Shown here piece after piece: positions 28,134 to 31,215 of a DNA stretch of 64,000 bases (position 1 is the first letter of the stretch; each line of letters starts with the position of its first letter). The stretch is from Thermosynechococcaceae cyanobacterium MS004 (GTDB lineage Bacteria > Cyanobacteriota > Cyanobacteriia > Thermosynechococcales > Thermosynechococcaceae). A program made the position numbers and the translations under genes. The notes under the pieces were generated by a model. The model made no database searches, was not told where the DNA came from, and saw only the letters and a program-made list of their open reading frames with translations. The stretch is from positions 62,001 through 126,000 of the forward strand of contig JAKRSB010000085.1 in the NCBI GenBank assembly GCA_022402525.1, in the 5' to 3' direction.

Positions 28134-28958
28134 TTATTTACTGGAACCTGGCGTGACGTTGATGAAAGGCAGAGGAGAATTGCCACCCATATAAATGGGG
28201 AACTTACCATCCCATTTTTCAATGGCCTGCTTTTGGAGTAAGTCTGGCGTCAAGGTGAGCCTTTGTAGCCGCTGCGCCTCAGCTTGCCCCTTCGCTCTGT
28301 TGACTTCAGCCTCGGCATCCTTCGTGGCCTTTAGTGCTACAAATTCCGCTTGTTTTGCCTGCTGCTCTGCAATTTGTTTGGCCTCAATCGATTTATTGAA
28401 CTCTGGTGAAAAGCCAAAGTTCACCAGAGACACATCGTCTACAGCTAGGCCATAGCCATCTAGCCGATTTTTGAGCGCCTGGTCAATTTCCTGTTTCAGT
28501 TCTGTGCGCTTGACCAAAATTTCTTCCACATTTTTCTTGGCTGTTGCAGCCTTCAAGACCTCAGAGACCGCTGGGTTAATAATGCGTTCTAAAATTTGTT
28601 GCTCATCCCCCACCCGTTGATAGACCGTATTCACTTGGTCTGGTTCAATATGCCAGTTCAGCGCCACTTGGGTTGTGACATCCTGTAGATCCCTGGAGGC
28701 AGCTTGGGCGTTAATATCGCTGCGCTGCACCCGTACACTCATCGTTTTGACCGACGTGATAAAGGGAATCACGAAGTGAATGCCTTCCCCCAAGACCTTA
28801 CTCTGCACCTGGCCAAACTGCATGATGACGCCCCGTTCTCCGGCATTCACGATCGCAAAAGGGCGCAGGAATAAAGCGATAAAGACTAAAGCACCGCCGC
28901 CGATTAGGAACTGTTTGCTTTGCTGCGGCAGGCGAAGAGAGGTAGCTGTTTGACGCAT
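28134..28958 (-). CDS. prohibitin family (SPFH/Band 7) protein
   Basis: 274 aa. One N-terminal membrane anchor (FLIGGGALVFIALFL), then the Band-7 domain beginning VNAGERGVIMQFGQV, and a long C-terminal coiled coil (EFNKSIEAKQIAEQQAKQAEF). Such proteins form membrane rings; in Synechocystis the homologue Slr1106 is one of several prohibitins. FtsH, a known prohibitin partner in bacteria and mitochondria, is encoded far away at 58.7 kb. Family assignment is strong; the role is inferred. Confidence 0.92.
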   Translation of the reverse strand: MRQTATSLRLPQQSKQFLIGGGALVFIALFLRPFAIVNAGERGVIMQFGQVQSKVLGEGIHFVIPFITSVKTMSVRVQRSDINAQAASRDLQDVTTQVALNWHIEPDQVNTVYQRVGDEQQILERIINPAVSEVLKAATAKKNVEEILVKRTELKQEIDQALKNRLDGYGLAVDDVSLVNFGFSPEFNKSIEAKQIAEQQAKQAEFVALKATKDAEAEVNRAKGQAEAQRLQRLTLTPDLLQKQAIEKWDGKFPIYMGGNSPLPFINVTPGSSK

Positions 28959-29059
28959 TGGAAGACTCTTACTCTGGACTGAATTTCAGGAAATGTGGCT
29001 GTGTTTCTTTCTTTATCCTATCTGGACATTTACTTAAGCTGAGCTAACGAGCTGCTTCT

Positions 29060-29151
29060 GCCCAACCAGCGCGTACACGCGGAACGGATATATACGCTAT
29101 CGGTTATGATGCAAGCGTTATTGCCGTCCGGTGACGCGCATGCCGTTAGCC
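29060..29151 (+). repeat. attC-like integron recombination site 1
   Basis: R''-like GCCCAAC (29060-29066; fits RYYYAAC) and R'-like GTTAGCC (29145-29151) enclose an imperfect inverted repeat: CGCGTACACGCGGAACGG near the left end pairs with CCGTCCGGTGACGCG near the right end, with unpaired bases. Size (92 bp) fits attC sites. It lies 100 bp upstream of the prohibitin start and directly before the first cassette gene. Confidence 0.55.
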
Positions 29152-29170
29152 CGAAAGAATTACCACAATT

Positions 29171-29506
29171 TTGAACCGTAAATTAAAATACATTACGTAC
29201 TCAACTAAGGCTGTGGTAACCGCAGCTATATGTAGTTATCTTTTACTCACCCTGCCAACCAGTTATCCTGTCAAATGGGATCACATCAGCCAGGGCATGA
29301 AAAGAGAAAAAGCGAACGCAATTTTATCACCATGGGATTGGCAGGAAGAGAATTCCAGCTACATGATTGAGAGTAGATCATGGCTTCGATTATGGAGAAT
29401 TGATGTTAATTTTACTCAAGATAAAGTTTCATCTGTGAGAATTTATCATGAAGATCCACATGAAACACTATGCAAAGAAATTTTCTATATGTTGAGCTAC
29501 TTTTAA
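29171..29506 (+). CDS. cassette A gene: small membrane/exported BamE-like hypothetical protein
   Basis: 111 aa, TTG start in an A/T-rich stretch unlike its neighbours. An N-terminal hydrophobic segment (AAICSYLLLTL) could be a signal or anchor. The segment HISQGMKREKANAILSP resembles the I-x2-GM-x2-xxV-xxxLG pattern of SmpA/BamE-like folds. The gene sits between two attC-like sites, 12 bp before the second, as expected for an integron cassette. Function unknown. Stable A/T bias and lack of any cyanobacterial family support foreign origin. Confidence 0.6.
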   Translation: MNRKLKYITYSTKAVVTAAICSYLLLTLPTSYPVKWDHISQGMKREKANAILSPWDWQEENSSYMIESRSWLRLWRIDVNFTQDKVSSVRIYHEDPHETLCKEIFYMLSYF

Positions 29507-29517
29507 CAATATAAAAA

Positions 29518-29587
29518 GGCTAACAAAGGTTTAAACCGTACAAAAGGAAGCGAAGCTACATTTTGACGGTCAAACTAAACGTTGGTT
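29518..29587 (+). repeat. attC-like site 2
   Basis: GGCTAAC (29518-29524) and GTTGGTT (29581-29587) bound a stem: GTTTAAACCGTACAAAA pairs with TTTTGACGGTCAAAC, leaving one extra A unpaired. The 70 bp length is at the short end for attC. R' departs from GTTRRRY at one base, so this is the weakest consensus of the three but a clear hairpin. Confidence 0.5.
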
Positions 29588-29589
29588 CT

Positions 29590-30081
29590 ATGGACATGAC
29601 CATGAATCGCAAATCTGATTGGCAGAGTATTCCTGTTTGGCGCTGTCCGCAGACTGACATGTGCGGACAGCAGTGGGCGACATGGAACGAAGGTACGACG
29701 TGCCCATTTTGTCACAGCGGGCTTGGAGAACGGACCGGCTTCACATACGGTGACGTCGCCAGAGCAGCAGACAAGTTCGGTTTCTGCGGTGACCTCCCCG
29801 TACACGTGCCTGAGCCGGTGCCAGATCTCGTCCCGCTATCAACGCTTCCTCAACATACTTGGATTGGCTTACCGGTCTTCCATCCCTGCGGCCAGGACGG
29901 AGCCAACGCGAATTGGATTCTCTATGATGTCGGTGTTGTACTCGATGTCTATCCCGACCCTGATTTTCCGAGCGACCTTCAATGCCAATTCGTCACATCG
30001 CAGGTTGGGCGAAGCGCCACCCTGCATTACAGGCCCTCGAACCTTTGGGTACCTCGCATTCTTGCGGAGCGATTAGTTTGA
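29590..30081 (+). CDS. cassette B gene: zinc-finger-like hypothetical protein
   Basis: 163 aa from the ATG at 29590, which is two bases after the attC-like R' box, the normal position for a cassette start; an in-frame TTG at 29563 would begin inside the hairpin. Four cysteines (Cys19, Cys25, Cys38, Cys41; WRCP ... MCGQQW ... CPFC) suggest a treble-clef/zinc-ribbon module. The rest, beta-rich with many Pro/Asp, matches nothing I recognise. The stop is 30 bp before attC-like site 3. Confidence 0.6.
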   Translation: MDMTMNRKSDWQSIPVWRCPQTDMCGQQWATWNEGTTCPFCHSGLGERTGFTYGDVARAADKFGFCGDLPVHVPEPVPDLVPLSTLPQHTWIGLPVFHPCGQDGANANWILYDVGVVLDVYPDPDFPSDLQCQFVTSQVGRSATLHYRPSNLWVPRILAERLV

Positions 30082-30110
30082 AGCTCAACAACGCACCACT
30101 GGAAAGTTGT

Positions 30111-30199
30111 GCCCAACAAAACAATGGAGCCAACGTGGTGACAAGTATGCGCCCTTGCTCTGCCTCGGTTCGCCGCACGGCTCATTTTTAGCGTTAGAC
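30111..30199 (+). repeat. attC-like site 3
   Basis: Best of the three: R'' GCCCAAC (30111-30117) and R' GTTAGAC (30193-30199) both fit the RYYYAAC/GTTRRRY consensus. The left arm ATGGAGCC pairs with GGCTCAT on the right, leaving exactly one extra G on the left arm, the strand-choice feature of real attC sites. Length 89 bp. The R boxes pair with two G-T wobbles. Confidence 0.65.
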
Positions 30200-30246: not shown

Positions 30247-31215
30247 TCACACTCTAATTTTGCTGATTAGGGAACGATGATCTGATACTCCTGAAGGACC
30301 AGTAATAACCTGATCAACCTGAATATCTTCACTCAAAAAAATATGGTCGATTGGGATTTTGATTAACTGAAATAGCCAATGGGTGCGAGCAAAAACTTTT
30401 GTGTAGTTTGCATAGTACCAAGTTGGCTGAAGTCCATACCCCAGAGAAGCACTATGCAAGTTTGAGCGCTGAACAAATTCACGCAAATAAAGCGACCATG
30501 AGGTTGTGTTAAAGTCGCCCATAACGATCAAAGAAGAGGACTGCTGTTTCGCGTAATCTGCTAGCGATCGCAGCACCTGATTGCGACGGTTGAAGTGGTC
30601 GATGGTTTGCGGTGCGGGGGGACGTAGGACAATCACCTGCACTGACTTGCCCTGAATATCCAGTGTTGCGAAAAGACCGTGGTGTGGAGAATTTAGGTCA
30701 TCCGTTCTGGCTTCAATTATTCGATAGCGACTGAATAAGCTGAGATTTCCCCCTGTCGCTCGATAGTAGTAAGGATAAACCTCTTGAACGCGCTTCCATA
30801 AATCAGCAGCTTGCTCCTTGTAAGGTTCCACTAATCCAAAGATGTCGGCTGGGTGTGCTCTGACCAATTGTTCGACAGTTCCTGTATACCAGAGTTGATA
30901 GTTCACGTTGTAAGTCATGACAGTCACTGGAATGCCGCTTGATTGGGGCTGACTGAAATTGGGCACATACCAGCCCAGAATGGAATGAGCGTAGAAAATT
31001 AGGGTGATCGTGAGCACAACTAGCAGCCTTCGCTTTTGTCGTAAGGGTTTGAGCAAAAGGAAAATGCTGAACAACAGTAAGGTTGTGCCAGCAAACCATC
31101 AGTAGGCAGTTCCTAGAATCTCGAAAACCCAAAACTTGTACCACCAAGCCGTCGATAAGCTTAATTCCAGCAGTAAAAATGTGGTTAAGTCGAGAATAAT
31201 ATTCACAAATTTCAT
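30247..31215 (-). pseudogene. endonuclease/exonuclease/phosphatase family membrane protein, interrupted by a stop codon
   Basis: The catalytic part (reading to 30247) has EEP motifs MTYNVNYQ, GLVEPYKEQ, MGDFNTTSW and PIDHIFLS ... SDHRSL. Reading back from an ATG at 31215, the same frame gives two hydrophobic helices (LTTFLLLELSLST and TTLLLFSIFLLLKPL), but codon 39 is TGA (31099-31101) where GTAY-Trp-Trp would fit, one base from TGG. Restoring it gives a continuous 322-residue protein. Translation from an internal TTG (31074) would give a 275-aa product missing the first helix. A nonsense-mutated gene is favoured; a sequencing error or a shorter functional form are alternatives. Confidence 0.7.

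Follow-up and report, generated by a model that had tools for sequence, protein, structure and literature searches.

The 1.14 kb between positions 29060 and 30199 of the window, the whole 64 kb stretch of DNA that was analysed, is very probably a cluster of attC sites lacking an integrase (CALIN), in which a leading orphan attC is followed by two complete cassettes, each closed by an attC of its own. The alternation of attC-like sites and ORFs had been described in the initial annotation and its coordinates are exact, the same three sites being matched by the covariance model R2 described below. The label of CALIN, given at the same time, agrees with the finding of three same-strand attC sites within 1.14 kb on a contig without intI. 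There is no match to intI (TIGR02249) anywhere on this 194 kb contig, C135, which is why the earlier reader saw no integrase gene in the window; the intI and attI that stand beside the array in a complete integron are absent from the locus. The three sites are at contig positions 91,060-92,199, well inside the 193,840 bases of C135, and the layout is therefore not an artefact of a contig end.

Layout of the locus and its cassettes

The order at the locus is strictly attC, ORF, attC, ORF, attC, with both ORFs on the plus strand. The components of the putative array and its neighbours are as follows.

28134-28958, minus strand: hflC-like SPFH gene (Pfam), left flank of the array
29060-29151, plus strand: attC site 1; R'' GCCCAAC at 29060, R' GTTAGCC at 29145-29151; belongs to the main attC family of the genome; its own upstream cassette gene is absent
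29146-29581, plus strand: cassette A; 436 bp, 36% GC; its ends are the G/TT cuts in the R' boxes
29171-29506, plus strand: ORF A; 111 aa, TTG start
29518-29587, plus strand: attC site 2; R'' GGCTAAC at 29518, R' GTTGGTT at 29581-29587; short stem, bulged A, asymmetric loop
29582-30193, plus strand: cassette B, between sites 2 and 3; 612 bp, 55% GC
29590-30081, plus strand: ORF B; 163 aa, best start the ATG at 29590, 2 nt past R'
30111-30199, plus strand: attC site 3; R'' GCCCAAC at 30111, R' GTTAGAC at 30193-30199; L'' AAT(G)GAGCC pairing with L' GGCTCATT
30247-31074, minus strand: endonuclease/exonuclease/phosphatase-family gene (Pfam), right flank of the array

The A/T bias reported for cassette A is real, its 36% GC being the lowest of any segment of its size within a window of 53% GC. 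Promoter-like matches in the region number 4, against 1.9 (sd 1.3) in shuffled sequence, which is not clearly above background. In sister genomes only the hflC-like gene is common to this locus, not its neighbourhood, the nuclease gene on the other flank being accessory, and no empty site was found. An extra box, AGCTAAC, is present at 29042-29048, 18 bp 5' of site 1, and complements the GTTAGCC at 29145 at 6 of 7 positions; the bottom-strand fold extended to it has a z of -3.5, and it is possibly a remnant of another box.

By eye, ORF A has a single hydrophobic segment close to its N terminus, while the N-terminal part of ORF B is cysteine-rich and zinc-ribbon-like (CPQTDMC...CPFC). Neither has a match in Pfam or NCBIfam, and for ORF A the one PHROG match is non-significant. 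Across 292 cyanobacterial genomes there is a single weak partial match to ORF A and no convincing homologue; ORF B likewise has one weak partial match, across 194 cyanobacterial genomes, and no homologues were found in viral contigs and plasmids. The predicted structures are of low confidence, with a mean pLDDT of 53 for ORF A and 37 for ORF B. Judged from their sequences, both are orphan cargo genes of no recognised family.

Recognition of the three sites as attC

The AAC and GTT cores of the R'' (RYYYAAC) and R' (GTTRRRY) boxes are present in all three sites, with single-base departures from the strict consensus in both boxes of site 2 and in the R' of site 1. The inverted repeats are imperfect and have unpaired bases, as was noted initially: there are two extrahelical bases in the family to which site 1 belongs, a bulged A in site 2, and in site 3 the single extra G that had been seen on its left arm. 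When folded, sites 1 and 2 are more stable than shuffled sequence (for site 2, z of -2.4 on the bottom strand and -3.1 on the top strand), but the minimum free energy of site 3 shows no extra stability (z +1.7). A simple box-and-stem scanner, run across the window, has site 3 as its top match and does not place sites 1 and 2 above background. With weak scanner ranks for two sites and an unremarkable fold for the third, inspection of single sites is insufficient. A search of the window against Rfam matched no family.

Comparison with the rest of the genome is more informative for site 1, which by blastn has seven copies on other contigs (E < 0.01), the best match covering approximately the R''-R' span only; for sites 2 and 3 no close copy was found in the searched regions of the same genome or in the intI loci. 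Twelve sites of the family align as one stem with a conserved extrahelical G plus a second bulged A, and 11 of the 23 stem pairs are changed on both sides, a level that 0 of 500 shuffles equalled. Covariation across 57 sites goes in the same direction, in an alignment that had been fitted to the structure. On the bottom strand this family has a C as its extrahelical base, whereas a G is canonical for attC sites of Vibrio and of class 1 integrons.

A covariance model had been suggested as a check in the initial annotation, and with two models made from this genome the three sites are the top three matches in the window. Model R1 was made from the 12 family sites, excluding sites 2 and 3, and ranks sites 1, 2, and 3 first to third at 97.5, 20.9, and 16.5 bits, with E-values that are rough for models built from the same genome (4e-31, 3.6e-4, and 0.012). 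Model R2 was made from 50 sites, which included site 1 but neither site 2 nor site 3, and was applied to the entire window unfiltered; its similarly rough E-values are 1.8e-21 for site 1, which was in training, 1.7e-4 for site 2, and 7e-6 for site 3. These are the only matches in the 64 kb with E < 1, all are on the plus strand, and the next best has an E of 2.5. Sites 2 and 3 diverge from the main family and their scores are far below that of site 1.

That R2 recognises attC can be seen from 80 loci that were chosen solely for encoding a relative of this genome's IntI. The model matches 102 sites in 40 of these loci, all 102 on the strand opposite to intI and 100 located 5' of it, which is the standard integron layout. 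Further evidence comes from the boxes. The integron recombination cut falls between the G and the TT of R', which would mean that the first and last boxes of one cassette derive from a single attC. In this genome the start and end boxes of cassettes agree at 3.42 of the 4 variable bases, while permutation gives 2.40 (none of 20,000 permutations being as high) and agreement within single sites is at 2.22 of 4; in other genomes the agreement at cassette ends is 3.53 against 2.15, and is perfect in 34 of 49. Such complementarity between start and end boxes is what site-specific recombination predicts. In cassette A the start, GTTAGCC, is the exact complement of the end, GGCTAAC (4 of 4 variable bases); the boxes of cassette B, GTTGGTT and GCCCAAC, are complementary at only 2 of 4. 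In 26 of the 31 segments between sites in the genome, the longest ORF runs in the attC sense.

Origin of the array

It is highly improbable that site 1 is the sole true attC, with sites 2 and 3 chance hairpins and the ORFs ordinary genes. Their low individual scores and the unremarkable fold of site 3 would be consistent with this, yet both sites are recognised by R2 from outside its training set (E 1.7e-4 and 7e-6), the three share a common strand and spacing with boxes at the edges of the ORFs, and the complementarity of the cassette A boxes is perfect. The occurrence of the site 1 family at many places in the genome might instead indicate a dispersed repeat, MITE-like or REP-like, or terminators that happen to resemble attC. 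This is extremely improbable, given that the orientation opposite intI is fixed in many other genomes, that R boxes have been exchanged between neighbouring sites, that the segments between sites mostly hold a single ORF on the sense strand, and that extrahelical bases are present.

The CALIN is itself probably the leftover of a longer array, eroded by the loss of its integrase end and of the first cassette gene. Site 1 is complete and is preceded by no cassette gene, with the hflC-like gene starting only 101 bp away; this is suggestive of a loss of the integrase side and of the gene that site 1 once closed. Off-target insertion, in which IntI would have placed cassette circles at a chromosomal site other than attI, is an accepted origin of CALINs (PMC8618304) and is the rather less likely explanation here. 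The approximately 55 sites in many small groups across the genome and the lack of an intI remnant on contig C135 are in its favour, but after a single such event no complete attC would be expected on the left, where site 1 is complete, and at many other places in the genome the groups adjoin, in the layout standard for integrons, intI genes that are broken, which favours eroded integrons.

Cassettes A and B were most likely captured at one time by an integron integrase. IntI binds attC as a folded bottom strand and joins it between the G and the TT of R', a mechanism established for integrons (PMC8946536). Joining at this position gives every cassette a start box and an end box of its own, as is shown for A. 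Under erosion, the integrase end and the first cassette gene would later have been lost through deletion or rearrangement. In their folding the three sites resemble the other attC sites of the genome, and cleavage in trans by the intact IntI of another contig, C140, would in principle be possible.

Integrases and attC sites in this genome and across the Cyanobacteriia

The initial annotation had suggested searching the whole genome for intI and for more attC sites, and both are there. Contig C140 carries an intact intI of 324 aa, with 485 bits to TIGR02249 (cut-off 265), which keeps the conserved motifs HTLRH, LLGH, and IYTH and is collinear with IntI4 (structure 2a3v), including the IntI-specific insert NREWKWQYAFPA...RRHH. 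On its divergent side (L001 2440-3391) are GTTAGAC, a 154-aa ORF, and a matching GTCTAAC, in what is apparently an intact integron, cut by the contig end. There are also approximately 14 decayed copies of intI (L002-L008, L054-L060, L109-L116), 49-84% identical to that of C140, and many of these relics adjoin small groups of attC in the standard layout. With R2, the genome has 55 sites at E <= 0.05 in many small dispersed groups, a count limited by the first-look search stage. Window sites 2 and 3 are not included in it and were found by the search of the window alone. Since the assembly is of 150 contigs, some arrays are cut. In one group, on contig C28 (L054 11058-12553), a 750-bp cassette is present in tandem duplicate, the copies being 98.5% identical and their attC sites identical. 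On contig C18 (L061 1455-2983) an ORF in an attC-flanked segment resembles ribonuclease III by eye, and begins a long way past the first site.

The literature already covers the integrons of cyanobacteria, as well as CALINs and the origins proposed for them (PMC2426708, PMC8352920, PMC8618304, PMC9668308). The window array resembles a CALIN in that at least two attC sites in the same orientation enclose cassettes of one ORF each and no intI is nearby, but differs in being very small, with three sites, in having an orphan first site, and in that its host has intI elsewhere. Like the Cyanobacteria-type attC sites modelled previously (PMC8352920), these are cyanobacterial sites with conserved sequence and structure, a likeness drawn here apart from that model. 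Compared with a chromosomal integron with IntI (TIGR02249; IntI4, 2a3v), the genome has a full-length integrase on C140 with a cassette-like ORF on its divergent side, but that integrase is not at the window locus.

The initial annotation held that cassettes are rarely described in cyanobacteria. This is unsupported: intI is present above the curated cut-off in 95 of 291 sampled Cyanobacteriia genomes (102 at E <= 1e-60), R2 finds attC-type sites in at least 221 of the 291 (E <= 0.001, with up to 15 candidates scored in each genome), and cyanobacterial integrons have already been published (PMC2426708, PMC8352920, PMC8618304). Many of these genomes have attC-type sites and no recognisable integrase. 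No paper devoted to cyanobacterial integrons was found in the open literature searched, and one may exist elsewhere; a working attC model is now to hand for a group for which a dedicated integron study was not found. With attC sites and integrases present in such a ratio across the Cyanobacteriia, the way in which CALINs originate becomes a question that can be tested in many related genomes. A speculative reading, more doubtful than not, is that the integron of the Cyanobacteriia is mainly scattered, as tiny chromosomal groups of cassettes seeded and reshuffled in trans by one or a few integrases, with most intI genes decaying and attC sites outlasting and outnumbering them. The locus in the window is an ordinary integron remnant, and it illustrates how dozens of mobile-gene cassettes, many of them with unknown proteins, can be present in one cyanobacterial genome.

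Plasmids also carry parts of such systems. Plasmid pNe_5 of Nostoc edaphicum has two attC sites (L011 7993-8084 and 8229-8312), one of which is 81% identical to site 1, and has no intI. A plasmid of Kovacikia minuta (NZ_CP083584.1, 32024-32983) encodes an integron integrase that shares 65% identity with the IntI of C140, and is a possible vehicle for cyanobacterial integrons.
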